Shown: positions 13,031 to 46,521 of the stretch, in pieces
Numbering within the stretch: the first letter of the stretch is position 1
How the letters are laid out: the number at the start of each line of letters is the position of its first letter
Virus record (IMG/VR): IMGVR_UViG_3300037804_000399
Location: 26,832-90,831 of that record
DNA from: a virus
Length of the DNA: 64,000 bases
Direction: 5' to 3' (one strand)
Made by a program: the position numbers and the translations under genes
The notes under the pieces: model-generated
Database searches by the model: none
What the model was told of the DNA's origin: nothing
Seen by the model: only the letters and a program-made list of their open reading frames with translations

Positions 13031-13828
13031 ATGAATAAAATTAAAAAAGATTCAAAACTTGAATTAACTGAGGAAGAGCTTAAAGCAATTGCTGTACCAG
13101 CTCAACTATCAGAAGATGATACTGAAGACCTTGATATGGAGTATGAAGAGTTGGAAGATCTCGACATGGAAGAACTTGAAGACGAAGCTGCTGAAATGGA
13201 TTCTGATGAAGACATTAATGAAGACGAATTAGAAGAATTGATTCGTAAAGTTGTTAAAGAAGAATTAATGGCTCTTTTAGACGAAGACGAAGAAGAAGAC
13301 GAAGAAGAAGCTGAAGAAGAAGAATCTGAGTCCGAAGAAGAATCTGAAGAAGTTGAAGAAGAGGAAGAAGAAGTCGAAGAGTCTGTTCTGACTGAAGAAG
13401 AAGACTGTGAAGCATGTGACAAGTGCGATTGCGCTCCTTGTGAATGTGAAGAAGTTGAAGAATCTGTAATCACTGAAACGGACAAAGAATGTGAAAAGTG
13501 TTCTAAGACTCCATGTGAATGTGAAGAAGTTGTAGAAGCAGTTGTAGAAACAGCAAAAGAAGAAGTTAAAGAATCTAAAAAAGCTAGATTCAAAAGAGTT
13601 CTTTCTGAAAGACGCAGAGCTGAAACTATCAAAAAGATTAAATCTAAAATCGCAGAGTCAAGAAAGACATCTCCTAAAAAAGAAGAGTCAGTAGCTGAAA
13701 CTGTAAAGCCAACTCCTGTTGTTGAAAGCGCTCCAAAGAAATTAAAGCGTACTCGTGACAATAAGAAAGTTGACAACGAACAAATAATGATGGAAAATTA
13801 CGCTCGTATTTTAAATAGAGACAAGTAA
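13031..13828 (+). CDS. Highly acidic Cys-containing protein, prohead core or internal protein candidate
   Basis: A 265-residue protein with an extremely acidic first half. Two tandem units of about 35 residues each have E-S-V-(L/I)-(T)-E followed by clustered cysteines (C-x2-C-x2-C-x-C-x3-C-x-C, then C-x2-C-x4-C-x-C). The second half is basic, rich in Lys/Arg. The C-terminus, E-Q-I-M-M-E-N-Y-A-R-I-L-N, resembles the tag of the other proteins. V-L-T-E and V-I-T-E are possible prohead protease sites, as in T4 scaffold gp22. A late promoter lies upstream. Core or internal protein is inferred; the cysteines may bind metal. Confidence 0.65.
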   Translation: MNKIKKDSKLELTEEELKAIAVPAQLSEDDTEDLDMEYEELEDLDMEELEDEAAEMDSDEDINEDELEELIRKVVKEELMALLDEDEEEDEEEAEEEESESEEESEEVEEEEEEVEESVLTEEEDCEACDKCDCAPCECEEVEESVITETDKECEKCSKTPCECEEVVEAVVETAKEEVKESKKARFKRVLSERRRAETIKKIKSKIAESRKTSPKKEESVAETVKPTPVVESAPKKLKRTRDNKKVDNEQIMMENYARILNRDK

Positions 13829-16416: not shown

Positions 16417-19400
16417 ATGGTTGACAAGAAAGGTTCGGACTTCAATCAAGGCGAATTGTTAAAGAAGTATATTAACAACCCTGAATGGATCCGAACATAT
16501 GAAACGTTGTGGAATACTCTCGAAACATCTACTCAATTAGTAGGGGCTGAAATACATGAGAAAACTAGAAATTATGTACAGAACCTACGTGACATAGACC
16601 TTTGTGAAACAAAAGCTCTAAGATCAATAGTTACAGAACTTCAAGTCGACAATATGGAAATTGTTGACGCTCTTCCTAAAGAGATTCAACGACTAGTCGA
16701 TATCTTTTCAATTAACCCTTCCCTTCTTTTAACAGATGGAATGGTTTTTGAAGATTACATGGAAACGTTTGAAGCAGAAGTTCAAGCCATATATGCAAAA
16801 TACTTTCCCACTCAGTTCTTCCTTCGTCAATTTGAATTTGATGACGCAGAAGTAAAGTGGAACAACCAACCTATAGAAGAATTCGTAGATAGATACGCTT
16901 GTAAGGTTGTTAATATAATTAACAAATACAAAGAAGAATCTGAATCTGATATTGATGAACTTGATATTACAAATGAAATGTTATTTGATTCTTCCGAACC
17001 TAGATTCTATGATTCAAGTGATGTTGATTTTGTAGGAACGCTTGAAGGCGTAATCCAAAATACAATAGCTGATAGACTTTACGATCAATTTAGCACTGAT
17101 ATCGAAACAGGAATTTACCGTCAAAGCATTTCAGAAGATGGAGACAATCCAGTATTTGGAGATGTATTCGGATTTACTTGGATTGTGGACGATGAGAACT
17201 TCATGAAAGTTCAAATCAAAGCAAATATTGAAACAATTTTCAAAGCATTTAACGATAGTGTTATTCTTGGAGAATCATACTACGTACCTTTCCAAGTGTT
17301 TACTGTAACTCAACTTTCAATTACTAGTGGGTTAATACTTCCAGAGCACGTCTCTAAGACGTATACTCGCTCGAAGGTGATACTGAACGGGGTAGCAACA
17401 TTTATCGATGATGAAGACATCTCAGAATGGATGGCATTGATTGTTAGAAGATTTGAAGACTCTTCATTCTTTATTGATGACGCAGAATCTAAAATAGAAT
17501 CTTTAGAATATGTTCAGTTCCGTCAAAAGTTTCCACCTACAGTTACAGAATATATCAATCTTGTTGATCCAGCTGCTACTGAAATAGATGAAAGTTTCGT
17601 TTGGGACATTATTGGTCTTGATCCACTTAACGAAGAACGTGATGTTTTGTATCATGAATGTTATGCTGGAAAGACAATGCTCGATTTGTTTATCATTGCT
17701 CAGTTCACTGATACTCTTTACAAGCACTGGTTAGAAGAATCTTACCAGTCATTGGTTGAAAACATTTTAGATCAAAACTTTGAATTTGGCACAGATGCTG
17801 ATTACAAATACAGAGGCGTTTACCAAATAATTGGTGATGATGCCAAAACAGAATTAGATGCACTTGCACCTTCACAATTTGAAAAAGACCATTACCTAAT
17901 TACATTAACTAATGAAGTTGAACAGTTCTTTGTATATAACGGTTTAGAGTGGCTGGAACAATGTCCGTTCAGAGATCTGGATCGAATCACAGAAGCTGCT
18001 GCTGAAAGCCTTCTTGACACCTGTAAACGTATTAGACTACAACGTAACAATTTAAAAGAGATTGCTCAACGCCATGCTATTATTGGTACCAACAGAGCTG
18101 TTGAAAGTGTTTTCACAGATTATGTATTAAGATCATTTACTCAATTAGAAGATTGGGAAATGACAACTGTCACTGATGATCGTAATTGGAGATTAGTTGG
18201 TGCAATAACTTTACAAGATTATGAACAAACTGCTGCTGGGTTATATGTAGATGATGATATAAAAATTGGAACATATAAAAGAGTTTTGGTTGCAAACCAA
18301 TATACTGATTATGTTGTATTCAGAAGTAAACAAACTTCAACATTAGTTGCAACTGAAATTGGATTATCAGACGAATTCGAATTTAATACTGATTCTGTTT
18401 ATAACTTGAATGACATTCTTCCTTCACTTGGAACATTAGATTCAAAAGTAAAAGTTATTGAATATTGGGATACAACAGAGTATTTTAATATTGAACCAAC
18501 CGAGACTAAGTATCTTACTGGACCGATCAATAAACGTATCAGTATGAAAGATGTTGTTAATATTACAGATGATGGTGATCTTGAGATTGCTGAAACTGGC
18601 GAACTAGTAGAATTCATAGAAGGTCAATCAAAATATCAAATCTTTAATCAGTATCTTGATAAAGGAAATCCTCAATACTGGAATGATAACAAGGAAACAA
18701 ATTACTCTACAAGTCGTGAAAACAGCATAAACTTTTCAGATGAAGAAGTTTCCGAAAGAAAGAGATTCATGGGATCTTACAGTCCAATCGATCTTGTATT
18801 CAGTGCTGGTCTGTCAAGAATTGAAACTCCTGGCCCGTTGAGAAGTTCAGATATCCAAGCTGGTGATTACTACGATGTAAACTTTACTGTACCTGATTTT
18901 GCAAACACTGCATATACAGCAGCTCAATTAGCAGCTGTTGATGCAAATGCAACAAACGGTCTTGATGCAATGGATTTAATCCAACAAGAAGCTTATTACA
19001 CTAATCTTTATTCATCTCTCGATGATCAAGAGATTTTTGACGATGGTGCTCAATGGATTTTATCTTACAAGAGAGGCGATGCAGAAAAAGCTGAAGGTTT
19101 AACTTTTGATGATGCTAAAGACTGGGATCCTGAAAACGTTTTACATCAAACATATATTTTAAAAAGAGCTAGAACCAAAGCAATACGTTTTTGGGGACAA
19201 GGCGCTGACATAAACTTCATGTCATTTAAATTTGATAATTGGTTCAAGATTTCATTAGAAGAATGGTTGATCAACAATCAAGACAAACACATGACTCAAT
19301 TCTGGAATGATGTTGGTATGAAGGGTGACTGGGAAGCTGACATACGTCCTATCCTTGATCAATACTGGAACATGCATGCTTCATCAGGATATTTAGATAC

Positions 19401-22400
19401 TGAACTTTATGATATCCATAAGAAATACATTGGTGTTTCAAAATCAAGATTGTTAGAAGGTGCTATTACAAAAGATCCTAGTACTGGAACATGGGACTTT
19501 GAAAATTTTGTTAGAGAAGTTGCTCACGAAGGATCACACCCTGCAGCAAACTATAAAAACTCACTTTACCCAACTATTCAACACCAACCATTCCTTTGGA
19601 ACTTGGTAGAAAAACTTGCGGTTGTTTTCCCTTCAGTATTGTTTACTGTATTAGTAGGAGAAGGTGAAGAAGTTTTAAACCGTTTAAGTCAAATAGATGA
19701 ATTTGGTAACTTGATTGACAGTTGGAAACATACTCACCAAGAGTTTATGTCATACCAAACTAGATATGAAGCTTCTACTAATACAGGAATTGCTTCAATA
19801 AGCGATCCGCAGATTGATAGAGATGGTCCATTTAATCCAGATGCGTTAAAAGAATTAATTAAATCAAATGCTGAACCTCTTTCAGATAAGAGTTCGTTCG
19901 GAAATGATTTTGTTGAAATCTTTAGAAATGATTATTACGGATACGCATCTGTGTTCTCAGATTTTTATTTCCTACAAGCTGAAAAAGCAAAGATTCAATT
20001 TCACTTGGATCGCATTGACGGTGTAAAAGAATTTGATATTGTTGGAATACCAACAGGAGATGAAGATTTATTTGGATTGAGAAATCAAAAGATCTTTCAA
20101 TTTGCTGCTGATCAAAATGAATATCACTATACCCTTTACAAAGATGTAAACATCAAAGATTGCCCTGGACAGCTTTGGGTTCGTTATAATAATTTCCCAT
20201 TCTCATTTCCAGTTGCTGTCGACCAAACAGATCTTATCACATATGATGATACATTAGTAAGTATTAATCAATTAGAAACTAGAGATGTTTCACTCGTAAA
20301 CGTTATGAATAACTGTTACGATTTTGGAATACAGCAAAACATTATTTGGGCACTTGGAGATAATCACGGCGAACTAACATGGACGGTTTTAAATGTTGGA
20401 TTTACTCTTAATGATGAAGTAAGAACATCTCTTTATACAATCATTAATAACGCAACACCTTATGTATTTTTAGAGAATGAACATTATGTTGGTACTCACT
20501 TTAATGGTGATACTATTATTCTTGTAATTTATAATGAAGAAACAAATAAATTTACAAATAAATATATTGATCTTATCGAATTAGTTTACTTACCTGACAG
20601 AACATATTCTGTAGGTGATGATATGAGATTCTTTAAAGATTCTGATGAAGCGCTTATCCAAGGACATGCTCTTTCAAATACTACAGTAAGAATTTGTCGT
20701 CCAGTTGATCTACCAACCACTCTTCCAGCTACAACTACTACTGAAGGACCAATTATTGTTGTTCCTCCTGCGACTACTCTTGGACCGACTACATTAGCAC
20801 CTCCTACCACATTAGCACCAACAACTACAGTGGGACCAACAACTACAGTGGGACCAACAACTACAACAACTATTTGTCCATCATTAAAAGAAGATCTATT
20901 TGTAAGATGGCAGTATCAATCTTCATATGTTCACGAACAACCTACTCCGAGAGATATAATTGTAAAGGTATATCGTGACCCACTAAGTACATTTACTGGA
21001 GCATTTTCAGTAGCTTATAATACATTAGATGAAGGTGATCCAGGTTCGCAGTGGCCAAGAACTCAATTTCCAGATACAGGCCCTTCAGCTGAGAAAATAA
21101 AAGATTACATACCTAAAGCAGATTTCATTTATTTTGCAGAAGGTCAAATGGAAGCGGAAGTAAAAATTACTATTCTTCCAAGTGCTCAACCAGAAAATGC
21201 AGAATATTTCTATATTAGAATGACTGATTTCTTATTCAACGATTGTTGTGAAGTTAATTCAAATGTGGTTGAACAGAATCCGCATATGATTTTAATAACA
21301 GATAGATGTTGCCCTTGTCCTGAAACTACTTCTACTACAAGTACATCTACTTCAACATCTACTTCAACAAGTACTTCAACAAGTACTTCAACATCTACAA
21401 GTACTTCAACATCTACTTCAACAAGTACAAGTACTTCAACAAGTACTTCAACAAGTACTTCAACAAGTACTTCAACAAGTACTTCAACAAGTACTTCAAC
21501 ATCTACAAGTACTTCAACAAGTACTTCTACATCTACAAGTACATCTACTTCTACATCTACAAGTACATCTACTTCTACTTCAACAAGTACATCTACTTCT
21601 ACATCTACTTCTACATCTACAAGTACATCTACATCTACTTCAACAAGTACATCTACTTCTACATCTACTTCTACATCTACAAGTACATCTACATCTACTT
21701 CAACAAGTACATCTACATCTACTTCTACTTCAACAAGTACATCTACTTCTACTTCAACAAGTACATCTACAAGTACATCTACTTCAACAAGTACTTCTAC
21801 ATCAACAAGTACATCTACTTCAACAAGTACCACAACACTAGCACCTACGACAAGTACCACAACAAGTACCTCTACTTCTACTACAAGTACATCAACATCT
21901 ACTTCAACAAGTACATCAACAAGTACAAGTACTTCAACAAGTACATCTACTTCAACATCTACTTCAACAAGTACTTCAACAAGTACATCTACTTCAACAT
22001 CTACTTCAACATCTACTTCAACAAGTACAAGTACTTCAACAAGTACCACAACACTAGCACCTACGACAAGTACAACTAGTACATCTACAACTAGTACATC
22101 TTCAACAAGTACATCTACTACGTTGCCACCAGTATTAAGTTGGAAGTATGTTCCATGTCCGACTACAACAAGTACTTCGACAAGTACTTCAACATCTACA
22201 AGTACAACTACACTTGCACCTACAACAAGTACTTCGACTTCGACTTCAACAAGTACTTCAACAAGTACTTCAACAAGTACTTCAACAAGTACTTCGACAA
22301 GTACAAGTACTTCAACATCTACAACTACACTTGCACCTACAACAAGTACTTCGACTTCAACAAGTACTTCGACAACTACATTAGCTCCTACAACTAGTAC

Positions 22401-23094
22401 GACTACGACTACAACGACTGGTGTACCTACAACAACAACTACTCCGGCTCCAATATTAAGCTATGAGTATGAAGAATGTTTTCCAGTTACAACAACTACT
22501 GCGGCTCCAACAACGACTCCGACTCCAACCACTAGTACAACATCTGCGCCGATGGGAGCAGTTGGAACTCCGAACGGTGATCCGACTATGTTGATAACTC
22601 TAAACTGGACTCCAGGTGACGCTACTAAAAACTATCTAGGAGAAAGCTGGACTCCTGGAGAGACAAAAATAGCTTATTCTTCTGATCCATATAGAAAAGG
22701 AGTTTACACTGGCGGAGCAACTATCGAATCAGAATTCTGGGGAATTAATGCAGCTGGTGTGAACAACGATAAATTTGTATTAGCAGCATTCATTTCTGCT
22801 GCAGCGGGATATAGACATTATGATAAAGTTCACTATGCTGCTGAAAATGCAAAGATTACAATAGGATCAAATTACACTTTTAATTCTGCACAAGCAAGTT
22901 CAAAAATATTATCCTTTACTCCTGAAGGAAATGCTTTTCCATTTGGAGGTCCGTGGGGTACAGCAATAAATACTGTCAGTAGTGGAATATTAGTAAATAT
23001 TGGCCAAGGATATATTCAACCTCTTCAGTTTTCTGGAATGGTTGCTCTAACAAACGGATTAACAATTTCATGGTCACAAGGAACTGGGTGGTAA
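16417..23094 (+). CDS. 7: Baseplate wedge gp7-like protein with giant Thr-Ser linker and C-terminal adhesin domain
   Basis: At 2225 residues this is more than twice T4 gp7 (1032). The N-terminal part (about 1-1430) is the wedge-like region and follows gp6 as in T4. After residue 1432 come Thr/Pro linkers, a beta domain at about 1489-1636 ending in a CCPCP cluster, a 266-residue pure Thr-Ser tract (1637-1902), two short L-S-(W/Y)-x-Y hinge segments with Cys, a second Thr-rich tract, and a C-terminal domain from about 2046. That domain has G-D-P-T-M-L-I and W-T-P-G-E-T-K motifs shared with the genes at 23096, 24584 and 26886. The tail probably projects a receptor-binding domain from the baseplate. 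Confidence 0.75.
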   Translation: MVDKKGSDFNQGELLKKYINNPEWIRTYETLWNTLETSTQLVGAEIHEKTRNYVQNLRDIDLCETKALRSIVTELQVDNMEIVDALPKEIQRLVDIFSINPSLLLTDGMVFEDYMETFEAEVQAIYAKYFPTQFFLRQFEFDDAEVKWNNQPIEEFVDRYACKVVNIINKYKEESESDIDELDITNEMLFDSSEPRFYDSSDVDFVGTLEGVIQNTIADRLYDQFSTDIETGIYRQSISEDGDNPVFGDVFGFTWIVDDENFMKVQIKANIETIFKAFNDSVILGESYYVPFQVFTVTQLSITSGLILPEHVSKTYTRSKVILNGVATFIDDEDISEWMALIVRRFEDSSFFIDDAESKIESLEYVQFRQKFPPTVTEYINLVDPAATEIDESFVWDIIGLDPLNEERDVLYHECYAGKTMLDLFIIAQFTDTLYKHWLEESYQSLVENILDQNFEFGTDADYKYRGVYQIIGDDAKTELDALAPSQFEKDHYLITLTNEVEQFFVYNGLEWLEQCPFRDLDRITEAAAESLLDTCKRIRLQRNNLKEIAQRHAIIGTNRAVESVFTDYVLRSFTQLEDWEMTTVTDDRNWRLVGAITLQDYEQTAAGLYVDDDIKIGTYKRVLVANQYTDYVVFRSKQTSTLVATEIGLSDEFEFNTDSVYNLNDILPSLGTLDSKVKVIEYWDTTEYFNIEPTETKYLTGPINKRISMKDVVNITDDGDLEIAETGELVEFIEGQSKYQIFNQYLDKGNPQYWNDNKETNYSTSRENSINFSDEEVSERKRFMGSYSPIDLVFSAGLSRIETPGPLRSSDIQAGDYYDVNFTVPDFANTAYTAAQLAAVDANATNGLDAMDLIQQEAYYTNLYSSLDDQEIFDDGAQWILSYKRGDAEKAEGLTFDDAKDWDPENVLHQTYILKRARTKAIRFWGQGADINFMSFKFDNWFKISLEEWLINNQDKHMTQFWNDVGMKGDWEADIRPILDQYWNMHASSGYLDTELYDIHKKYIGVSKSRLLEGAITKDPSTGTWDFENFVREVAHEGSHPAANYKNSLYPTIQHQPFLWNLVEKLAVVFPSVLFTVLVGEGEEVLNRLSQIDEFGNLIDSWKHTHQEFMSYQTRYEASTNTGIASISDPQIDRDGPFNPDALKELIKSNAEPLSDKSSFGNDFVEIFRNDYYGYASVFSDFYFLQAEKAKIQFHLDRIDGVKEFDIVGIPTGDEDLFGLRNQKIFQFAADQNEYHYTLYKDVNIKDCPGQLWVRYNNFPFSFPVAVDQTDLITYDDTLVSINQLETRDVSLVNVMNNCYDFGIQQNIIWALGDNHGELTWTVLNVGFTLNDEVRTSLYTIINNATPYVFLENEHYVGTHFNGDTIILVIYNEETNKFTNKYIDLIELVYLPDRTYSVGDDMRFFKDSDEALIQGHALSNTTVRICRPVDLPTTLPATTTTEGPIIVVPPATTLGPTTLAPPTTLAPTTTVGPTTTVGPTTTTTICPSLKEDLFVRWQYQSSYVHEQPTPRDIIVKVYRDPLSTFTGAFSVAYNTLDEGDPGSQWPRTQFPDTGPSAEKIKDYIPKADFIYFAEGQMEAEVKITILPSAQPENAEYFYIRMTDFLFNDCCEVNSNVVEQNPHMILITDRCCPCPETTSTTSTSTSTSTSTSTSTSTSTSTSTSTSTSTSTSTSTSTSTSTSTSTSTSTSTSTSTSTSTSTSTSTSTSTSTSTSTSTSTSTSTSTSTSTSTSTSTSTSTSTSTSTSTSTSTSTSTSTSTSTSTSTSTSTSTSTSTSTSTSTSTSTSTSTSTSTSTSTSTSTSTSTTTLAPTTSTTTSTSTSTTSTSTSTSTSTSTSTSTSTSTSTSTSTSTSTSTSTSTSTSTSTSTSTSTSTSTSTTTLAPTTSTTSTSTTSTSSTSTSTTLPPVLSWKYVPCPTTTSTSTSTSTSTSTTTLAPTTSTSTSTSTSTSTSTSTSTSTSTSTSTSTSTSTTTLAPTTSTSTSTSTSTTTLAPTTSTTTTTTTGVPTTTTTPAPILSYEYEECFPVTTTTAAPTTTPTPTTSTTSAPMGAVGTPNGDPTMLITLNWTPGDATKNYLGESWTPGETKIAYSSDPYRKGVYTGGATIESEFWGINAAGVNNDKFVLAAFISAAAGYRHYDKVHYAAENAKITIGSNYTFNSAQASSKILSFTPEGNAFPFGGPWGTAINTVSSGILVNIGQGYIQPLQFSGMVALTNGLTISWSQGTGW
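21325..22122 (+). repeat. Thr-Ser coding hexamer repeat (about 800 bp)
   Basis: This is an almost uninterrupted run of 6-bp units (ACAAGT, ACTTCA, ACATCT, ACTTCT) all encoding Thr-Ser, mixed so that perfect long repeats are limited. Gains or losses of whole units keep the frame. Two TTLAPTTS interruptions are visible near 21829-21850 and 22043-22070. Confidence 0.95.
22162..22449 (+). repeat. Second Thr-Ser/Thr-Pro coding repeat
   Basis: Further hexamer units after the first hinge, with TTTLAPTTS interruptions, ending in Thr-rich GVPTTTTTPAP. Confidence 0.9.
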
Positions 23095-23095
23095 A

Positions 23096-24019
23096 ATGGC
23101 AGATTTATATTTAGATGCAGATTACGGAAACTTTATAAGACATTTAGGAATATGCTACATGTTAGAAGATCCTGACTTTGTAACCCCTCCGGACTTTGCA
23201 GGTCCACCAGACGAGGTTGGATTTACTGATTGTGATGATTGTGAATCAACTCCTATTACAACAACCACTCTCGGACCTACAACAAGTACTACACCAGCAC
23301 CATTGTCAATTGTAGGACCAGTTAACGGCGATGGAACAATGCTAATTAAATTAGAATGGACGTCAACTGCAGTTGCAAGTGTTTCTATAGCCAGTCCTTC
23401 TCAAATTACTACATCTGCTGTTCACAATTACGAAACAGGAGATTCGATTACTATTAGTGGAACAGATACTACGCCGTCAATAAACGGAACACATATAGTA
23501 ACAAAAATAGATGCTAACAACTTTACTATTCCAGTCAATGTTACTGCAGTAGTTTCTGGTGTAGGAGCAACTGAATTTGCAACTGTTCCATTTGTAGGAG
23601 GTAGTTGGACAAACGGCGAAACTAAAAAAGTTTATTCACAGGCAGGTGGGTATGTATATGAAACTAGTTATTATCCTTCAATTACCTCATACTCTGGATC
23701 AGCTGAAAGATGGGTAAGAGTGGTAAGCGGAGACACATTTAGAGTAGGAGGATTCGAAAAGCAATTAGGAACTTTCGCGGGTAAAATCAGTGACGGAAAT
23801 TTAATAGTCAAAGGATTGCATGGAGCAAATTTGTATATGGATAACTATACTAATGGATCATATGGATTTGCTGGCACTCCTACAAGTGATAATATAGCAA
23901 GTAAAGCACTGGCTGCTGCTGGTATCGTGAGAGGATTCCCATGTGGAGCTCCTCAAAAATCATCTTCATTCGTTACTACGCATGATATAACTATAACATG
24001 GTCTCCACAAGGATGGTAA
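23096..24019 (+). CDS. Adhesin-family tail protein (N- and C-terminal shared domains)
   Basis: A 307-residue protein starting two bases after gp7. The N-terminal domain (MADLYLDADYGN, then I-C-Y, F-A-G-P-P and D-C-D-D-C-E) recurs in the genes at 24021 and 26886 and may be the attachment module. A short TTTTLGPTTSTTPAP linker follows. The C-terminal domain (G-D-G-T-M-L-I, S-W-T-N-G-E-T-K-K-V-Y, ending S-P-Q-G-W) is homologous to the end of gp7. An inserted beta segment with H-N-Y-E-T-G-D-S-I-T-I-S-G lies near residue 115. Probably a baseplate-anchored receptor-binding or decoration protein; the role is inferred. Confidence 0.7.
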   Translation: MADLYLDADYGNFIRHLGICYMLEDPDFVTPPDFAGPPDEVGFTDCDDCESTPITTTTLGPTTSTTPAPLSIVGPVNGDGTMLIKLEWTSTAVASVSIASPSQITTSAVHNYETGDSITISGTDTTPSINGTHIVTKIDANNFTIPVNVTAVVSGVGATEFATVPFVGGSWTNGETKKVYSQAGGYVYETSYYPSITSYSGSAERWVRVVSGDTFRVGGFEKQLGTFAGKISDGNLIVKGLHGANLYMDNYTNGSYGFAGTPTSDNIASKALAAAGIVRGFPCGAPQKSSSFVTTHDITITWSPQGW

Positions 24020-24583: not shown

Positions 24584-25564
24584 ATGGCTGATGTATATAG
24601 TATAGCACCAGATCCTCAAGGTTTAGGTAGAGATGTTGATAATTTAAAATTTAGCATAGAGATTCCAAATACATTAAATGTATCTGTAGCGGGACCTTAT
24701 CCAGCCGGCACTTATAAGGTTACGGTAAAAGTAGTTGATGATGTTACTATGGAATTTGGGTATGGATTTTTCAATGTAGTTATATATGCTTCCATTACAG
24801 ATTTTATACTTAATCAAACAAATACTCCTAACGAAGGAGATCCAATCAGTACCTTAATAGGTGACTTACAAGTTACTGGAGGAACCGCCCCTTTTGTTTT
24901 TGCACTAATAGCTGGATTTGGAGACGGAGACAATCCCCATTATCAAATAAATCTTGCGGATTTAGAACTAAGTGGTACTGGTGGATCTACAGAACCTACA
25001 GATTCAATTTACGCAAGAGTGACTGATGCAAATGGTGACGAAGCATTTGACAACTTTATTATAAACTTAGATGCTCCTGGTGCTCCATTAGCAACAATAG
25101 GAACTCCAAATGCTGACCCTACATTGTTTATTAAAGTAGAATCTGCAAATGCTGGAGGTACTGCATTATTTCCTTATAATTTCCTAGATGAAGATTTTAC
25201 TGACGGTGAAACAAAAGAAGTATATGGAACTTATGTTAATGTAGCTCTATTAAAATCTTGGACTATTGGAGCTGGTGATGATAGCGTCACAATAGCTGAT
25301 GATAAAGTAGTATCACCAGCATCATATACTGTTATAACTGCAAACTCCGCTAGTGAGAATCTTCGCCGAGGAAAAGACAACGGTGATTTTGTTTGGGGTG
25401 GATATTTTGCTCCAGATGCTAGTGTAAATGTAGTTAGTACTACCATCGTAGCTGCCACTCCTAATGATGTATTAGATGCTAGCAATTATGGCGAAGTTGT
25501 ATTTGACATTTCGGGTGGCGGGAATCATGTTAAAATAACAATAAGCGAAGGAAATGGTTGGTAA
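24584..25564 (+). CDS. Adhesin-family protein, C-terminal part (possibly split gene)
   Basis: A 326-residue protein with AAGGAATGG ribosome site. It lacks the shared N-terminal domain. It has a partial Ig-like segment (Y-P-A-G-T-Y-K-V-T-V), a cadherin-like domain closely similar to that of the gene at 24021 (E-G-D-P-I-S, V-T-G-G, H-Y-Q-I-N, L-E-L-S), and the C-terminal domain (A-D-P-T-L-F-I, F-T-D-G-E-T-K-E-V-Y, ending G-N-G-W). Together the two proteins equal one complete family member. Tail location is inferred from context. Confidence 0.65.
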   Translation: MADVYSIAPDPQGLGRDVDNLKFSIEIPNTLNVSVAGPYPAGTYKVTVKVVDDVTMEFGYGFFNVVIYASITDFILNQTNTPNEGDPISTLIGDLQVTGGTAPFVFALIAGFGDGDNPHYQINLADLELSGTGGSTEPTDSIYARVTDANGDEAFDNFIINLDAPGAPLATIGTPNADPTLFIKVESANAGGTALFPYNFLDEDFTDGETKEVYGTYVNVALLKSWTIGAGDDSVTIADDKVVSPASYTVITANSASENLRRGKDNGDFVWGGYFAPDASVNVVSTTIVAATPNDVLDASNYGEVVFDISGGGNHVKITISEGNGW

Positions 25565-26783: not shown

Positions 26784-26870
26784 TGGTTAATATATTCAAA
26801 GAATAATAAGTAAATAAGGATACTGTAACAATATTTTTGGAATACTTATGACTCGAGAATATATTAACCA
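26784..26870 (+). promoter_or_regulatory. Long inverted repeat in the leader of the large adhesin gene
   Basis: TGGTTAATATATTC (26784-26797) and GAATATATTAACCA (26857-26870) are perfect 14-bp arms. An inner pair (ATAAGTA 26806-26812 with TACTTAT 26843-26849) would extend the fold. The 3' arm lies 15 nt before the ATG at 26886 and within a 12-codon open frame. It has no T tract, so a translational control element is more likely than a terminator. Confidence 0.55.
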
Positions 26871-26886
26871 CATGGACAAATTATAA
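26848..26886 (+). CDS. Possible 12-residue leader peptide upstream of the large adhesin
   Basis: ATG 26848 begins M-T-R-E-Y-I-N-H-M-D-K-L and stops in TAATG, overlapping the adhesin start. A TTGGAA sequence 5 nt upstream could serve as ribosome site. Translating it would open the 3' arm of the inverted repeat and deliver ribosomes to ATG 26886. Too short to prove by composition. Confidence 0.35.
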   Translation: MTREYINHMDKL

Positions 26887-29800
26887 TGGCAAATATTTAT
26901 TTAGATACTGATACTCACGGAGAGTATATAAAACATAATGATATTTGTTACAAGCGTGTAGGTCCGAGTACCACTGAGCCAGCAACTGTATTTGGAGCTC
27001 CTGATGAGACTGGATTTGCAGATTGTGACGATTGTGAGTTTGATCCCCCTGTATTCTTCGGAGAGTTTGATTATGAAACTGAAGAAGAAGGAAGTCTCAC
27101 TGCATTTACTGCTACCGCTACCGATACTGACACATATGAAATAATAGAACAACGAGATGAAGCCTTTTTTAACATAAATCCTGTAACTGGAGAAATAGTA
27201 TGGAAAACCGCTCCCGATTTTGATGACGCTAGAGATGAAAATTACGACAACAATTATGTTCTTAGAATACGAGCAACTGGACCAGGTGGACAAACTTTTC
27301 AATTTTATTCTGTTACAGTAACCAATATTTCAGAATTACCTGAATTTTATGGACCATCTACAAGGGAAAGATTTGATGGTTATGATGAAGGAATGACAAT
27401 TACAGCACACGATACAACTTCTTTTTCTATGATAGGCGGAGAAGACATTTCCAAATTTTCGTTAGATCCCACAACGGGCGTTTTAACATTTCTAGCAATA
27501 CCTGATTTTGCTTCCCCTGGTGATTTTGATGCAGATAATGAATATCATGTAACTGTAAGAGCAACGGGACCTGGTGGGTTTGCTGACAGAAACTTTACGA
27601 TATTTATAAGTGAATTTCCAACGGCTAGATGTACTGAATACGGAGCTGATGATATATTAGGAAATTTACCAACTAACACACATCCAACGATAGACTATAA
27701 AATAGAAGGAATGAATTTAGCTGGTGATAAATGGGTTGCTCAATTTGCGAGACTGATGTGTGATAGTAATGGAGTACAGGCTGGAAGATGGTATTCAGTA
27801 AAAGCAAATAGAGGTGCAAGCGGGACCCTAGTTTTCGACACTAACTATATAGAAACAAACTTACGACACCGCTGGACTACAGTAGCTGTTTCTAGTTTAG
27901 GATTTGGAGACGAAGACGTTGGACAATTTTACTTCGATATAGACAAAGATTCTGCAACCATTTTTATGGTGGTAAATTATGGTCTAATTAGACAAGGAAT
28001 ACGTTTCTCTTCTACTTGGAGATCTAATGATTACAAGGATGTCTTTAATCTAGATGGAAATTGGCAACACAGTTTTGATTCTTTAGGAACAAGCGCAACA
28101 TTAATTTCATCAACATGGGATAACTACAATTCTGGAGTGTCTGCTTTAGGAGTACAAGCACCGACAGGAGATTGGACGAATACTGCAACACCAACTTACA
28201 TTGAAGATCAAAAGATAACAGATGCTATGTTCGGAGAAATTGTATTTGACATAGGCTCATCGGGATTTGCCAGTCCGATAAGAGTAAAACTTTCAACTAG
28301 ACGTGGTACAGGAATAAATCCTGATTGGAATGATGTTCCAGCTCCTGTTGCTCCTGAAATAATTGGACCAACAAAATACGTAGTAAATGATGGAGTAATG
28401 CCAGCATTTCAAGTGAATGTAAAGGATAGAACATTTGAACCCACTTATACAATATCCGGTGGAGCCGATGCTGCTCTATTTACTGTTGACGCTAGAGGAT
28501 TTGTAAATTTTAAAGTAGCTACTAATTATTCAGCACCTACTGATGCTGGCGCAAATAACAAATATGATCTTCAAATTACAGCTACAAATGATCAAGGAGC
28601 TGATTCAGAAACTTATGAAATCACTGTTATAGGAGTATCTGGTGTAGTTGGTCCGATACAAACTCTTAATTTTTCTGGTTCGGGAACAACTGATCCAACT
28701 AGTTTAGACAATACAGTATTTGTAAAGTATGTTGGTGGTGGTGGAGAAGGTGTTTCTGCTTTTAATAAAACGTGGAACTCGGGTCAGTTAGGACATGTAT
28801 TTGTTGATTATACAGATGCTAGTCCAAATGGAGAATCCATTGCTATTTCAATTGGTGACTCTGTATTGAACATTTCTGATTTAAGTGATACTGCAATAAT
28901 AGAATTTACAGTACGTGCTGGGTTGACTTTGGACTTAGAAAAGATTTTAGCTCCTTTAGCTGATAATGATACTTCAGTGGGAGTTGAATCTCACACTTTA
29001 GATTTTACATATAATGATTCTATTTCAGATCAGTTTGGTAGAGTTACATTTACAAACGGAGAAGTGTGGGAATTTTTAAGAGGAAGTAATTGGCCTGCTC
29101 CGACAGCGCCAGTATTCACAGGAGCCACAGCTCATAGTCTTACAACAGGATATTCCAATCCGTTCACTGCCACTGCAAATCCAAATACTTATGATCTAAA
29201 TTTTGCAATAACAGGTGGAGCAGATGCAGCTGTGTTTAATATCACATATGACGGCACAGTTACTTTTATAGTTCCTCCTGATTTTTCAGCACCAATAGAT
29301 GCGGGTGCAAATAATGTTTATGATTTGGAAATCACTGCTACTAATGAAACAGGATCCACTGTACAAGCCTTTACTGTGACTGTGAATGATTTTACATTAC
29401 CAGTTTTTAATGGTCCTTTTGCATTGAACGTAGATGAAGAACAAACAGATATTTTGACAGTTGATGTTCAATTTAATGATTATCCTCCTACTTTTTCAAT
29501 AGTTAGTGGAGTGGATGAAGCTCTATTTGCGGTTGATAATATAACTGGTGTGGTTACATTTATAGCAGCTCCTGACTTTTTAACTCCGTTAGATGTTGGT
29601 GCTAATAATGTTTATGATTTTGAAGTTACAGCAACTAATCCTGCAGGTGATCAGACTCAAGCTTATGTTATAACAGTTGATCAATTACCATTGCCTGTTT
29701 TTACAGGAACGTTTATTCTTGAAATATCGGAAGGGTCAGCAGCTTTTACAGCAGTAGCTACTAACACTCCAACGTTTGCTATAACTGGAGGATTGGATCA

Positions 29801-30323
29801 ATCCTTATTTGATATTGTACCAGCTACTGGAGTTGTAACATTCTCACCAGCAGTATTATTTGCTTCACCTACTGACAATGGTGCTAACAATGTATATGAT
29901 GTTGAAATAACAGCAACTAATTTAGGCGGTTCAGTTGCTCAAGCATACGCGATAACTATTAGAGATCCAGCTTTAGTTCAAGAGATAGGAATAGAAATCG
30001 CAGGAGATCCACATGCTGAGATTACTTGGTCTTGGTCTGACGCTGCTGCAACAAAAGATTGGTTAGGTGAGACTTGGTCCAACGGAGAAACTAAACTAGT
30101 ACATGATGAATTTGCAGGAGCAAATGCTTCAGGATTTTACAGAGGTAATTATTCAGTAGGAAGCATTTATGTTGGCGGCTCGGTAAATGCAACATCTGGA
30201 AATATATTTGCTTATGGATCATCAATTGGATTTATGTCTGGTTATGGTAATTTAAATACAGGAGTTGTGTTAGTATCTGGTACAAATACAATGACATTAT
30301 TGATGAAAGCATCATTAACTTAA
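26886..30323 (+). CDS. Large modular adhesin with six cadherin-like repeats
   Basis: A 1145-residue protein. The N-terminus is the shared domain (MANIYLDTDTHG, I-C-Y, F-G-A-P-D-E, D-C-D-D-C-E). Six cadherin-like units of about 95 residues follow, with the pattern F-x-I-x-x-x-T-G-x-V-T-F, A-P-D-F, (G)-A-N-N-x-Y-D, I-T-A-T-N; they lie near residues 54-150, 151-243, 490-583, and three from 740 to 1035. Between and after them are domains with the W-x-x-G-(E/Q)-x-K motif; the last has T-K-D-W-L-G-E-T-W-S-N-G-E-T-K as in gp7. Such arrays usually form extended stalks. A host-recognition role is inferred. Confidence 0.75.
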   Translation: MANIYLDTDTHGEYIKHNDICYKRVGPSTTEPATVFGAPDETGFADCDDCEFDPPVFFGEFDYETEEEGSLTAFTATATDTDTYEIIEQRDEAFFNINPVTGEIVWKTAPDFDDARDENYDNNYVLRIRATGPGGQTFQFYSVTVTNISELPEFYGPSTRERFDGYDEGMTITAHDTTSFSMIGGEDISKFSLDPTTGVLTFLAIPDFASPGDFDADNEYHVTVRATGPGGFADRNFTIFISEFPTARCTEYGADDILGNLPTNTHPTIDYKIEGMNLAGDKWVAQFARLMCDSNGVQAGRWYSVKANRGASGTLVFDTNYIETNLRHRWTTVAVSSLGFGDEDVGQFYFDIDKDSATIFMVVNYGLIRQGIRFSSTWRSNDYKDVFNLDGNWQHSFDSLGTSATLISSTWDNYNSGVSALGVQAPTGDWTNTATPTYIEDQKITDAMFGEIVFDIGSSGFASPIRVKLSTRRGTGINPDWNDVPAPVAPEIIGPTKYVVNDGVMPAFQVNVKDRTFEPTYTISGGADAALFTVDARGFVNFKVATNYSAPTDAGANNKYDLQITATNDQGADSETYEITVIGVSGVVGPIQTLNFSGSGTTDPTSLDNTVFVKYVGGGGEGVSAFNKTWNSGQLGHVFVDYTDASPNGESIAISIGDSVLNISDLSDTAIIEFTVRAGLTLDLEKILAPLADNDTSVGVESHTLDFTYNDSISDQFGRVTFTNGEVWEFLRGSNWPAPTAPVFTGATAHSLTTGYSNPFTATANPNTYDLNFAITGGADAAVFNITYDGTVTFIVPPDFSAPIDAGANNVYDLEITATNETGSTVQAFTVTVNDFTLPVFNGPFALNVDEEQTDILTVDVQFNDYPPTFSIVSGVDEALFAVDNITGVVTFIAAPDFLTPLDVGANNVYDFEVTATNPAGDQTQAYVITVDQLPLPVFTGTFILEISEGSAAFTAVATNTPTFAITGGLDQSLFDIVPATGVVTFSPAVLFASPTDNGANNVYDVEITATNLGGSVAQAYAITIRDPALVQEIGIEIAGDPHAEITWSWSDAAATKDWLGETWSNGETKLVHDEFAGANASGFYRGNYSVGSIYVGGSVNATSGNIFAYGSSIGFMSGYGNLNTGVVLVSGTNTMTLLMKASLT

Positions 30324-30335
30324 TAGGAAAATGAA

Positions 30336-31226
30336 ATGATTGTAGTAACAGGAACTCCTCGTAGTGGAACTTCATTAGCAATGTTATCATTGGCAAAGTT
30401 AATTGGCAAAGATAAAATAGTAGGAGATAAGTTCCCTCAGAAAAAGAAAGCTCAAAATGCTGCCGAACGATATGTATATGAATTGAAGAATAATAATAAC
30501 TTGAACCCTACAGGGTTTTGGGAAAATTTAAAGTATATATCCAATGGATTTTCATATTCATCAGAAAATGAAAAAGAGTTTTATAAACTATCGACATCCT
30601 CTGATCATGCTGTTAAAATAATTGCTACTGGGTTACCAAAAACAGAACCAAAGTATATTGACAAGTTAGTCATCTGTTTGAGAGATCCTCTTGAAACTGC
30701 AACATCACAAACCGGACTTGTTGGACAAATTGGTCCAAGTGAAGCTGACCCTAAAAAACAAATCTTTGATTTAATAACGATTGCAAAATATATGATAGTA
30801 AATCCAAAGGTTGATTACTTTCTGCTGAATTATTCAGATCATAAGATAAATGCAAAATACACTATGGAACAATTAAGTGCATTTGTAGAAGTACCTTATA
30901 AGGAAAGCATTTACAAGGCCACTGGAAAGAAAACAATGAAGCGTCCCGATACAAAAATTTGGGACGAAGCATTTTACATTTACAATTTAATGATACAGGA
31001 AAATTTTCAAGCAGTGTGTGATTATTCCAATGATGTTACAACTGAGCTATCAAGACAAACAAAATCTTGGTTTTGTCCAAAGTTTGATTTTTTAACTAAT
31101 GATGATCGATGTAATACGTGTAGAAGCAATAGCAAGGTAAGAGAAAACTTTATTAAAAAAGCAAATCACAATAAACATGATCATGAAAACGAACCATGTT
31201 ACTTGGATCTATTAGAACAGGAGTAG
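30336..31226 (+). CDS. Sulfotransferase 2 (PAPS-dependent P-loop type)
   Basis: A 296-residue protein. V-T-G-T-P-R-S-G-T-S (residues 4-13) is the 5'-phosphosulfate loop; L-R-D-P-L-E-T-A-T-S (R116 to S124) is the 3'-phosphate site with the same R-to-S spacing as sulfotransferase 1. Both share F-P-Q-K-(K/R) after the loop, a G-F-W-E segment and the C-terminal module F-C-x(n)-R-C-x2-C with A-N-H-x-K and E-P-C. It starts 12 bp after the large adhesin gene and is probably in the same operon. The acceptor is unknown; a kinase is unlikely given the PRSGT loop. Confidence 0.75.
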   Translation: MIVVTGTPRSGTSLAMLSLAKLIGKDKIVGDKFPQKKKAQNAAERYVYELKNNNNLNPTGFWENLKYISNGFSYSSENEKEFYKLSTSSDHAVKIIATGLPKTEPKYIDKLVICLRDPLETATSQTGLVGQIGPSEADPKKQIFDLITIAKYMIVNPKVDYFLLNYSDHKINAKYTMEQLSAFVEVPYKESIYKATGKKTMKRPDTKIWDEAFYIYNLMIQENFQAVCDYSNDVTTELSRQTKSWFCPKFDFLTNDDRCNTCRSNSKVRENFIKKANHNKHDHENEPCYLDLLEQE

Positions 31227-33780: not shown

Positions 33781-36537
33781 ATGAATAGACAACTTCCAGT
33801 TGATATAAAAGATATTAAAGCGTTTTCAAACGAGTATATAAATCATTCGGTTGTAAACAGAGGACGAATCAGACTATATCAGAACGACGAATACTTACTA
33901 CAACAAATCGAAGGTATTTGGGGAAGTAGAGTTGATGAGCGTTTTCGTCTCATACGTACTTCAGAAACTGATTTTCAATATAAGCTTATCAATAATGCGG
34001 ATGTACCAGCTGTAAAGCTAGGTGACGTTATTGCGTACAGTGAAGAAGTAACTCTAGATGGTATTAAACCAAAATGGGGAATTCACACACCAACTACTTA
34101 TCTCAATGATTTGGTTGATGTTGATACTGATCTCGGCGAAGATGATGCTGAATTTAGTTATGCACTTGTATATGATAGAGAAACTGAATCTTGGAAAGCT
34201 ACAAAAGCTTTAATTAATATCGACCAATTAACAATTAATGTTATTGATGTTGTTCATGAAGTTATTGGAAGAACTATTGATGTAAACTCTGATCCACTTA
34301 TTCAGGATTTAGTTTATGTAAATGATGAAGTCATTTATCTTCCAAAGCCAAATAATCATGGTGATAAAATCACTATTGTTAAACCAGCTATCAACACTGG
34401 AACAAGTCCAGTAGATGAAGAGCTCCAAGTTGGTAGTCCTTTTAGAGTTATGATCAGAGTTGTTGATCCTGTTACCCCTTTCACAAGAGACGATAGTGAA
34501 ACATTAACAGTAAGTAAACTGACTCATCCAACTATTTTAGGTAAGCTTTATAATGAAGCTCAAGTATACTGCGAAGATGAAGATAGACCTTTCTCGAGTA
34601 TTACTTTTATTGCATCCATGGAGACATTGACATTAAACACTGGTGAAGAAGTAGAAGTTTCAAATTGGGTTCCTGTAAACGGTACAGGTAACTGGCAATA
34701 TGATTATGCTGATCCAACAATGAGTGAAACTCTTGATGATCATGGATTTGATTTAGATACTGGAAATACTTTAACTGCTGCTGCACAAATAAATTTCAAC
34801 CCAAGTCAGTTATCATCAAAAGGTCTAATAACTTTATTAGGTGATACTCCTGCTAACTATGGACTTGATAATCAAGTGCTTGTTACTAATCCAGGAGAAT
34901 CCAAGTATGAATTAAAAAACCTTCATCATGATTTACATGATAGTGATTATCATACAAATGTTGATGCTGCTGAAATTACTACTGGTCAAACTTTAGTATT
35001 CAAAAAGAATCTTGGCGATAACGGAATGTTCGTAAATGAAACTCTGAAATCAAACAATTCTGCAAACTTAAATGTTAGCGTCGGAACTATTATAGAAGTG
35101 TATAGTAGTACTGCTTTAACACAAATCAATCTACCAAATACTACAGAGTCAGATGATTCTTGGTTACTGGCTGATGGATCTGAGATAGTTGCGGCTGATT
35201 ATCCTGCTCTCATTCCTATTTTAAATAGTGATACAGTTGATATGTTGACTCTTCCGAGTATCACAACAGCAACAGATGTTTACGCCTTCATAAAGGCTAC
35301 AAATGCTACTGTACGTGAAATAAGAGACATGTCATATAAGCACTTAGCAAACCCTTTAGAATTAACACCGCAACCAATCACTAGCAAGGACGATGCCTTA
35401 ATAGAACAAACTGTTCTTTTATCAAGCCCGAACTTTGCTGGAATATCATTTTGGAACGTAAGAAAACTTTATGTTGAGATTTGTGTAACCGACAAGTATA
35501 CTCCTTATTGGGAAGATTCATATATCGGAACTGATTCATACTTCTCACCAAACCTCGATGATTCATGTCAAGATTCATTTCAAGATTCATTTCAAGATTC
35601 ATTTCAAGATTCATTTCAAGACTCTTGTCAGGATTCAGCATTTGATTTCCAAGACTCAATGTTCACAGGATTTGAAGTTGGTATAGGTGATACGTTCATA
35701 ACATTACAAGCAAAACTACCTGGCGCAACAAACTATACAAAATTATTTCAGAAGCAAACATTTGACACTGAAAGCTTTTCAACCCTTCTTGAGATTCCAG
35801 TTAATGAGAATCAGGAATGTGTTAACATTAAGTTTGGTTCAATGGTTAATTCATACTTTGGATTATCAGTAAAAGTAATTGGAGTAGATTGCGTTCGTGA
35901 ATTAACTTCTTCATTAGATGTAGAAACAGTTCAGATTAAAGGTACTGTTTCAAATGTAGATGTTTATAATCAACAGTATATTGATAACATTAGTAAATCA
36001 TTAACTGATAGCACTACAGGATTGAGCATTTATCCAATTCATGTGTTAGCCAATCAAGAAGTTTCAGAACCGTTTACTGAGTGGAGCGAAGTATTCGCAT
36101 TCCTAAATAACGATCTCGATCTTTCGACAGTTACAAAGACTACAATCAAAGGACAATTTTACAACTCTGGTTTATCAACAACACTGATCAATACAAACAC
36201 ACATCTTCAAGAAAACATGGCAACATTAAATGTCACTTTTGATTGGGAAGGTGGAACGATGATTGGTTCGTATGATATAAATCAAGGTGCTAGTCCATTG
36301 TTATTGTTTAGTGGAATTATAAAAGGTACTCGTTCAGTTGTTGGTGGTCTATATGTTTGGGACATTACAACACAAACTACTTTTGGTGTTGAGCCTTCAC
36401 TTGCTCCGACTATCAAATTTGAGTTTGAGCCAAGCGTGTCTCCATCATTCCCAGTTATCAATGCACTTCCGAAACCAGGTATCAACGATGTAGTATCATA
36501 CGATATTACACATTATCGTCACACTAACACGATTTAA
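33781..36537 (+). CDS. Tail fibre/baseplate protein with collar-type domain and FQDS repeats
   Basis: A 918-residue protein. Near residues 460-510 it has S-W-L-L-A-D-G-S-E-I-V-A-A-D-Y-P-A-L, later L-P-S-I and A-F-I-K-A, matching the phage tail collar domain found in short tail fibres such as T4 gp12. At about residues 597-620 a tandem F-Q-D-S repeat occurs, encoded by 12-bp units. The T4 relatives gp9, gp10 and gp12 all sit in this position after gp8. It is most likely a baseplate-attached fibre; which one cannot be decided by eye. Confidence 0.65.
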   Translation: MNRQLPVDIKDIKAFSNEYINHSVVNRGRIRLYQNDEYLLQQIEGIWGSRVDERFRLIRTSETDFQYKLINNADVPAVKLGDVIAYSEEVTLDGIKPKWGIHTPTTYLNDLVDVDTDLGEDDAEFSYALVYDRETESWKATKALINIDQLTINVIDVVHEVIGRTIDVNSDPLIQDLVYVNDEVIYLPKPNNHGDKITIVKPAINTGTSPVDEELQVGSPFRVMIRVVDPVTPFTRDDSETLTVSKLTHPTILGKLYNEAQVYCEDEDRPFSSITFIASMETLTLNTGEEVEVSNWVPVNGTGNWQYDYADPTMSETLDDHGFDLDTGNTLTAAAQINFNPSQLSSKGLITLLGDTPANYGLDNQVLVTNPGESKYELKNLHHDLHDSDYHTNVDAAEITTGQTLVFKKNLGDNGMFVNETLKSNNSANLNVSVGTIIEVYSSTALTQINLPNTTESDDSWLLADGSEIVAADYPALIPILNSDTVDMLTLPSITTATDVYAFIKATNATVREIRDMSYKHLANPLELTPQPITSKDDALIEQTVLLSSPNFAGISFWNVRKLYVEICVTDKYTPYWEDSYIGTDSYFSPNLDDSCQDSFQDSFQDSFQDSFQDSCQDSAFDFQDSMFTGFEVGIGDTFITLQAKLPGATNYTKLFQKQTFDTESFSTLLEIPVNENQECVNIKFGSMVNSYFGLSVKVIGVDCVRELTSSLDVETVQIKGTVSNVDVYNQQYIDNISKSLTDSTTGLSIYPIHVLANQEVSEPFTEWSEVFAFLNNDLDLSTVTKTTIKGQFYNSGLSTTLINTNTHLQENMATLNVTFDWEGGTMIGSYDINQGASPLLLFSGIIKGTRSVVGGLYVWDITTQTTFGVEPSLAPTIKFEFEPSVSPSFPVINALPKPGINDVVSYDITHYRHTNTI
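35569..35640 (+). repeat. 12-bp tandem repeat coding for Q-D-S-F
   Basis: Four perfect copies of CAAGATTCATTT (35569-35616) are followed by two degenerate copies. Copy-number change would keep the reading frame. Confidence 0.9.
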
Positions 36538-45828: not shown

Positions 45829-46521
45829 ATGGCTGAAGACAACGAACAAACTAGACGGTTTTTAAATACTCAACGCCAAGCTGAATATTTATCTAACGAA
45901 CTAAAATATCAAAACGAGACTGTTAGTAAGACAGGTCAGAATATTGTTTCTCAAAACATTAATGGCGAGAAGTTTGATATTGAATTTCAAGCTCTTAACA
46001 GTACTGTGGTACTTAAAAAAGAATTACTACATAGAGTACGAGAATCAAATGGCATTATTGTTCCTGATACTATTGAAAAGAATACTCGTACAGATGCTGC
46101 GACTGTTGTTAGTAAAGGAGAAGATGTAATTTGGGACGATTTAAAAATCGGTGATAGGGTTATGTTTGATACTCATGCTGTTTTCAGACCTACGTTTCCG
46201 ATTTGCTGGTTGCAATTTGAAAATATTATAGCAAAACTTGATAAGGATGATAATATGGATCCAATAGGTGACTTTCTTCTTGTTGAAGAAATCCAAAATA
46301 CAGTAAAGAATGAATACGATGGACTTCTTGAAGTTCCAGATTCAGTAAAAGATGAAACTCCTTTGTATAAAGTACATAAGGTTGGTCCATTAGTAACAAA
46401 AGCATTTGTAGGTGATGTTGTAATGTTTAGAGGTGACACTTCAAACATTCATATTAATCTAAAAGGAAAAGATGTTTCGTTAGTTAAGGAAGGTGTCCTG
46501 TTAGGTATCATTCCGGATTAA
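45829..46521 (+). CDS. Tandem-duplicated GroES-like co-chaperonin
   Basis: A 230-residue protein containing two GroES-like barrels. The first (about 55-135) has V-V-L-K-K-E-L-L, G-I-I-V-P-D, V-V-S-K-G-E-D-V and I-G-D-R-V-M-F. The second (about 140-230) has P-I-G-D-F-L-L-V-E, D-G-L-L-E-V-P-D, V-H-K-V-G-P and V-G-D-V-V-M-F, ending L-L-G-I-I-P-D. Each has a mobile-loop position (S-N-G-I-I-V / Y-D-G-L-L-E). Single GroES or T4 gp31 are about 97-111 residues. It probably works with the phage GroEL at 53992 or replaces host GroES, as gp31 does for capsid protein folding. Confidence 0.75.
   Translation: MAEDNEQTRRFLNTQRQAEYLSNELKYQNETVSKTGQNIVSQNINGEKFDIEFQALNSTVVLKKELLHRVRESNGIIVPDTIEKNTRTDAATVVSKGEDVIWDDLKIGDRVMFDTHAVFRPTFPICWLQFENIIAKLDKDDNMDPIGDFLLVEEIQNTVKNEYDGLLEVPDSVKDETPLYKVHKVGPLVTKAFVGDVVMFRGDTSNIHINLKGKDVSLVKEGVLLGIIPD

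Follow-up and report, generated by a model that had tools for sequence, protein, structure and literature searches.

The stalks of some phage tail fibres consist of collagen-like repeats whose length differs between relatives, typically by multiples of three residues (PMC3368898). Compositionally biased regions of other kinds also occur in phage proteins, and in a survey of 102 phage proteomes the longest low-complexity region measured 115 amino acids (aa), with Ala, Gly and Pro most enriched (PMC6821194). In a host surface protein, the Haloferax S-layer, a threonine-rich motif contains in-frame tandem duplications (15 and 48 bp) in mutants that escape the virus HFTV1 (PMC9973310). Here, we analyse a window of 64,000 nucleotides (positions 26,832 to 90,831 of the virus record IMGVR_UViG_3300037804_000399), in which a 2225-aa open reading frame (ORF), located directly after a gene for a gp6-like baseplate wedge protein, contains an extremely long tract of alternating Thr and Ser residues. 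The record from which the window is taken has 90,831 bases and is itself possibly incomplete. We present evidence that this tract grew by nested in-frame duplication, and we argue that it probably serves as a flexible tether for an adhesin at the tail tip.

The entire Thr/Ser-rich stretch of the ORF extends over aa 1634-2045 (nt 21316-22551), and Thr or Ser accounts for 358 of its 412 residues (87%). An earlier note on this DNA had described about 800 bp encoding 266 consecutive Thr or Ser residues. This span is real (aa 1637-1902, nt 21325-22122), but only 260 of its residues are Thr or Ser, as two Leu-Ala-Pro (LAP) triplets at aa 1808-1810 and 1880-1882 divide it into pure runs of 171, 69 and 20 residues. 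Beyond this span come other runs, of 17, 36, 14 and 10 residues (Table 1), and TLAPTT modules begin at 21835, 22051, 22210, 22327 and 22378. The repeat had been given a start at 20713, which takes in a separate Thr-Pro linker and a Calx-beta-like domain; the linker has a repeat of its own, 18 bp x 2.7 at 100% identity (20817-20865, Tandem Repeats Finder (TRF)). Because the probability of a 171-residue run is ~1e-139 per position at the regional Thr+Ser background of 15.4%, a chance origin is excluded. Two short inserts in the Thr/Ser region resemble each other, one at 22126-22161 (PPVLSWKYVPCP) and one at 22450-22488 (PAPILSYEYEECFP), each with one cysteine; they are possibly small folded or disulfide elements. 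An antisense 279-aa ORF (21210-22049) and an 85-aa ORF (22140-22397) were rejected as genes and attributed to the repeat itself, whose other frames contain few stops.

Table 1. Features of the tract ORF and its surroundings (window coordinates).
Feature	Coordinates	Strand	Basis or remark
gp6-like baseplate wedge protein, 822 aa	13937..16405	+	phrog_219 'baseplate wedge subunit' E=5.9e-28; homologue in record G009 E=4e-45
2225-aa ORF in gp7 position, with Thr/Ser tract	16417..23094	+	directly after gp6 ORF
First linker, Thr-Pro-rich, LPTTLPATTTTEGP...TTTVGPTTTVGPTTTTT, 18-bp perfect repeat	20713..20871	+	sequence; TRF
Calx-beta-like folded domain between the two linkers, aa 1486-1633	20872..21315	+	Pfam PF03160, sub-threshold
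Main tract, 171 consecutive Thr/Ser	21325..21837	+	82 strict Thr-Ser pairs at 21337-21828
Second tract, 69 Thr/Ser residues	21847..22053	+	
Third tract, 20 Thr/Ser residues	22063..22122	+	closes the 266-residue span
Further Thr/Ser tracts, 17, 36, 14 and 10 residues	22162..22419	+	LAP triplets between
Thr/Pro-rich linker end with short insert ILSYEYEECFP	22420..22551	+	sequence
C-terminal adhesin-like domain, 180 aa	22552..23091	+	related to C-termini of ORFs 24584, 26886 and probably 23096
Neighbouring ORF: N-terminal module MADLYLDADYGN..., Thr linker TTTTLGPTTSTTPAP, adhesin-like domain of same kind	23096..24019	+	
Neighbouring ORF, C-terminal domain related to that of tract ORF	24584..25564	+	BLASTP
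Sulfotransferase-like gene 1, PRSGTSL P-loop	25640..26770	+	PF00685 E=6.8e-8; PF13469 E=1.9e-6
1145-aa cadherin-repeat ORF, C-terminal domain related to that of tract ORF	26886..30323	+	Pfam Cadherin E=7.6e-15; BLASTP
Sulfotransferase-like gene 2, paralogue of gene 1	30336..31226	+	28% identity, E=2e-37; no own Pfam match

The nucleotide sequence of the tract bears the marks of its growth. The proposal that its units measure 6 bp agrees with what we observe, in that all unit lengths are multiples of 6 nt and the frame is kept, while the codons are mixed (ACA or ACT for Thr; TCT, TCA or AGT for Ser). When the synonymous codons of the 171-residue run were shuffled 500 times, the longest exact repeat averaged 30 nt and never exceeded 51 nt, compared with 83 nt in the natural sequence, whose codon-pair entropy is also below that of every permutation. 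Self-similarity is in excess at 24, 30, 54, 60 and 84 nt, and blocks with the TTTLAPTT module are present as exact copies of 42 nt (at 21816 and 22032) and 39 nt (at 22203 and 22320). From these observations follows a history of nested in-frame duplication, and the growth of the linker by duplication is well supported; the reading frame and the alternation of Thr and Ser survive such events because the units are multiples of 6 nt. Selection against perfect repeats, which the earlier note had also suggested, is half right: adjacent identical 6-mers are strongly depleted, at 5% compared to 18% in permutations (none of 300 as low), whereas larger perfect repeats are in excess. The depletion of adjacent hexamers possibly reflects either such selection or a duplication unit of 12 nt or more. 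It is not general, since in a comparison of 30 tracts, among them the window tract and some near-copies, 21 fell under the permutation mean and a minority clearly so; the longest repeat surpassed every permutation in half of the 30. Two other sources of variation were considered and rejected, namely phase variation by frameshift, given units in multiples of 6 nt, and diversity-generating retroelements, for which no PF00078 reverse transcriptase match was found in the 90.8-kb, possibly incomplete, record.

Tracts of this class are rare but recur in other phages. Scanning 2.9 million IMG/VR contigs for a pattern of ~50 residues of Thr-[Thr/Ser] returned 82 stretches, and 76 ORFs had a run of 50 residues or longer. 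The window tract belongs to the longest of these but is exceeded by that of L072, at 235 residues, the maximum. A scan of bacterial genomes returned 38 stretches; in 35 of these a Thr/Ser run reached 30 residues or more, and many were poly-Thr or poly-Ser in short frames. The proteins that flank the IMG/VR tracts are mostly unrelated (the alternating tracts come with 31 different N-terminal sequences), and the tracts join folded domains. A Fib_succ_major domain directly follows the alternating tract in three distantly related phage ORFs (L070, 140 aa; L012, 118 aa; L050), and other tracts occur in SPRY and Sipho_Gp37 proteins. Because the flanking proteins are mostly unrelated and several tracts stand before binding domains, a recurrent design is indicated rather than common descent. 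These ORFs resemble the window ORF in having an alternating, mixed-codon tract that links folded domains in what are probably surface proteins; they differ in their flanks, which are non-homologous to those of the window ORF except for the Calx-beta-like domain of L076, and none was seen in a gp7-position gene, most neighbourhoods being unchecked for gp6. No description of Thr-Ser tethers in phages was found in the literature searched, which was largely without subscription papers.

Comparable tracts differ in length between close relatives. The loci of L018 and L031 are 95.3% identical over 7.5 kb, and their tracts of 71 and 69 residues differ by 6 nt, in frame. Among the 69 aligned tract codons there are 19 synonymous differences and 1 non-synonymous difference; outside the tract, the same ORF has changes at 21 of 222 flanking codons. 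Selection at the protein level is not demonstrated by these figures, because slippage that copies only Thr and Ser codons would also yield synonymous-only differences. L071 and L072 share 5,538 downstream bases without a mismatch, and their tracts are rearranged, with gaps of 54 and 6 nt; the two are candidate natural length variants, or possibly the product of an assembly error. Thus, the earlier claim that linker length varies without loss of frame holds for tracts of this class in other phages.

We consider it probable (about 0.65) that the tract is a long, flexible and disordered tether that carries an adhesin at the tail tip. The large N-terminal part of the ORF would be built into the baseplate, in the position of gp7, and the Thr-Pro linker, the Calx-beta-like bead and then the ~410-residue Thr/Ser-rich chain would hold the C-terminal 180-aa domain off the baseplate. 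Fully stretched, the chain would have a contour length of ~140 nm, and far less as a coil, and the domain at its end would reach for the cell surface. Growth would have taken place through slippage or unequal recombination, as nested in-frame tandem duplication of units of ~12-60 nt plus larger blocks with the TTTLAPTT module. The tract is read as a tether because it sits between two modules with homologues elsewhere. On its N-terminal side, the Calx-beta-like domain matches PF03160 at E=0.0053 (17.2 bits compared to a cut-off of 27) and has a homologue in L076, part of the 222-kb virus record G009 (30% identity, E=2e-14). That homologue, which is preceded by a Thr linker, is barely above the Calx-beta cut-off (27.4 bits, 3.6e-6). 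G009 is also the nearest relative by gp6, and genes downstream of its gp6 contain Thr and Thr/Ser linkers.

The earlier note had called the tract a linker before an adhesin domain. A C-terminal domain does follow the tract and is duplicated in neighbouring ORFs (BLASTP E=1.7e-7 for ORF 26886 and 1.8e-4 for ORF 24584), and its role as an adhesin is one that we infer; it has no match in Pfam or PHROGs. In the next gene, ORF 23096, the 15-residue Thr linker TTTTLGPTTSTTPAP, of the same style as the long tract, precedes a domain of this type, and the linker is for this reason identified as the element of variable size. ORFs 23096, 24021 and 26886 have an N-terminal module in common, MADLYLDADYGN...DCDDCE (55% over 51 aa between the first two by BLASTP), and the natural reading of the ORFs downstream of the tract is that of a putative adhesin cluster.

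Identification of the ORF as gp7 is plausible from gene context. It adjoins the gp6-like ORF, as the gene order of the gp7/gpI family requires, and its sole identity hint is a sub-threshold match of aa 533-583 to Tail_P2_I (E=0.027, 14.8 bits, curated cut-off 20.6). Tail_P2_I is the P2 gpI family. Searches of Pfam, PHROGs, PDB and phage records gave no significant match to the ORF, and no gp7 PHROG was found. Relatives were not detected in phages by tblastn, in IMG/VR by back-translated patterns or the exact repeat, or in records G007 and G009, apart from a weak match between aa 1-99 and the following ORF of G009 (small search set, E ~1e-3). A tblastn search with the tract alone as query returned nothing, its sequence being masked by the low-complexity filter. 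The gp6 protein likewise had no match as an IMG/VR query; with PolB as query, 80 distant T4-like loci were recovered, the gp7 neighbourhoods of which are reachable only through their parent records. The earlier term 'baseplate wedge protein' is thus retained tentatively, on the strength of the position after gp6.

Several observations weigh against the tether reading. The virus is known from sequence alone, and the gp7 label depends on gene order and one match below its cut-off. Predictions by AlphaFold were uninformative, both for aa 462-1428 alone and without an alignment (mean predicted local distance difference test score (pLDDT) 31.6) and for the C-terminal domain together with three paralogues (mean pLDDT 33), so that neither a baseplate fold nor an adhesin fold is supported by a model; the word adhesin derives from the recurrence of the domain in cadherin-like and other tail-region ORFs and not from a family match. 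As to variation, a second copy of the window virus's own tract was not found in IMG/VR with patterns or the exact repeat, the tract of L071 lies at the end of its stretch and its difference from L072 could be a misassembly, and in eleven contig pairs covering eight other tracts the tracts are identical, most pairs from the same population being equal in length.

Whether the chain is also modified is a separate matter. Its Thr and Ser residues might be O-glycosylated and/or sulfated by enzymes of the virus or the host, which would make the stalk stiff and extended, with a charge or a coat of sugars, as in mucins, a view compatible with a tether to which it adds modification. The chain would offer hundreds of acceptor residues, and two sulfotransferase-like paralogues are encoded 3-8 kb downstream of it, among the adhesin ORFs. 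The first scores 32.7 bits against PF00685 (threshold 22) and 28.7 against PF13469 (threshold 27), shows the PRSGTS P-loop (MIIVSGCPRSGTSL start), and found no match in the phage collection. Sulfotransferases of this fold act mostly on sugars, lipids, small molecules or tyrosine, which counts against an action on the tract, and Sulfotransfer_3 matches are present in only 2 of the 46 other tract records, far from the tract. The modifying enzymes may be these two paralogues or, in relatives, glycosyltransferases. In G009, a galactosyl/GT2-type glycosyltransferase (L175 9802-10578; PF02709/PF10111 above cut-off) separates the gp7-position gene from the genes that carry Thr and Thr/Ser linkers, and four further records have a glycosyltransferase at most 2 kb from a Thr-rich tract. 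Such clustering is not significant, however: Glycos_transf_2 genes score above cut-off in 22 of 47 records, but 7-8 of 40 places in tract loci compares with ~5 expected, and 5 within 2 kb of a tract with ~2.5 expected, and none was found in the window's own, incomplete, record. The O-glycosylation or sulfation put forward in the earlier note could therefore serve as a reasonable hypothesis for the window virus, not as a general association among tract records, and overall we hold a mucin-like stalk to be unlikely. Still less probable is a broader scheme in which a Thr/Ser chain of several hundred residues on a wedge protein is both modified by virus-encoded enzymes and, through in-frame duplication, length-varied in nature, with adhesin reach and surface chemistry co-evolving.

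The remaining explanations concern the length of the tract. Slippage may simply have lengthened a tolerated disordered chain that has no purpose past that of a minimal linker. The nested duplication signature is as this would have it, a neighbouring paralogue makes do with 15 residues, and the synonymous bias between L018 and L031 (19 versus 1) could stem from slippage alone, without selection. The recurrence of Thr/Ser composition and alternation in many unrelated phage proteins instead favours a useful property, and the 82 strictly alternating pairs lack any 3-nt slip; we regard neutral expansion as doubtful, though a possibility to be kept in mind. If the length were actively varied within a population to tune infection, in-frame variants such as those between the near-identical L071 and L072 and the close relatives L018 and L031 would be expected, but the identity of the eleven contig pairs, the depletion in the window tract of adjacent identical hexamers (the most slippage-prone arrangement) and the inability of 6-nt units to switch a frame on or off make a contingency locus very improbable. 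A tract created, or altered in length, by metagenome assembly must be weighed as well, since the virus is known only from an IMG/VR-type record, repeats commonly misassemble, and the tracts of L063 and L071 lie at the ends of their stretches. The frame is nevertheless open throughout the window tract, the codons are mixed, and no exact repeat exceeds 83 nt, which is shorter than a typical short read and makes assembly across the tract plausible; moreover, tracts of this class come from many independent assemblies, and separate records hold identical sequences. An artefact is accordingly hardly credible, and the exact length of the tract is provisional.

The gene setting is that of a T4-like phage, with PolB, a helicase, SbcCD-like proteins, a primase, topoisomerase II, GroEL and a GroES-like protein in the window. 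The best isolate matches of PolB are marine T4-like phages, at ~28% identity. Both the GroES-like protein (45829-46521) and GroEL (53992-55620) are virus-encoded. Other tandem repeats are present in the window, including GAA-rich repeats at 13279-13373 (ORF 13031-13828) and 49543-49583 (ORF 49099-49866) and a further in-frame 12-bp repeat at 35560-35637, (GATTCATTTCAA)x6.5 = (DSFQ)n, inside a 918-aa ORF (33781-36537).

Taken with its counterparts, the tract points to a recurring design of tailed phages, unnamed in the papers searched, in which very long alternating Thr-Ser linkers stand before binding domains in unrelated proteins and lengthen by in-frame duplication. Such linkers offer a clean natural system for the effect of tether length on adsorption and, should they prove to be modified, would be a rare case of phage-encoded mucin-like chemistry.

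Among described systems, the T4 gp7, P2 gpI and type VI secretion system TssG wedge proteins, which have been proposed to be mutually similar (PMC6300606; see also PMC3004832), resemble the window ORF in their position directly after gp6 and, tentatively, through its sub-threshold Tail_P2_I match. The window ORF differs in its size (2225 aa compared to 119 kDa for T4 gp7), in the lack of a significant PDB or PHROG match, and in its C-terminal linker-plus-adhesin extension. The low-complexity regions surveyed in phage proteomes (PMC6821194) are likewise compositionally biased, whereas the window tract holds 171 pure Thr/Ser residues within ~410 aa. The Haloferax S-layer motif (PMC9973310) also acquired in-frame duplications in a threonine-rich surface protein and, as these were seen in virus-escape mutants, demonstrates that such duplications occur and can accompany a phenotype; it is a short motif of a host protein, and was experimentally selected. 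By analogy, the closest functional parallel is the collagen-like (Gly-X-Y)n stalk, exemplified by EPclA and EPclB of E. coli prophages (PMC3368898), in which a repeat stalk similarly connects an N-terminal virion domain to a C-terminal one. Its in-frame length differences in multiples of the unit are matched by the tracts of other phages. The parallel would be one of role only, as collagen is a trimeric helix on fibre proteins, whereas the window repeat is Thr-Ser without Gly, most likely disordered, and on a probable wedge protein. The window tract, as a repeat-built linker of a probable phage adhesin, is thus an instance of an already known sort of design and not a new system.

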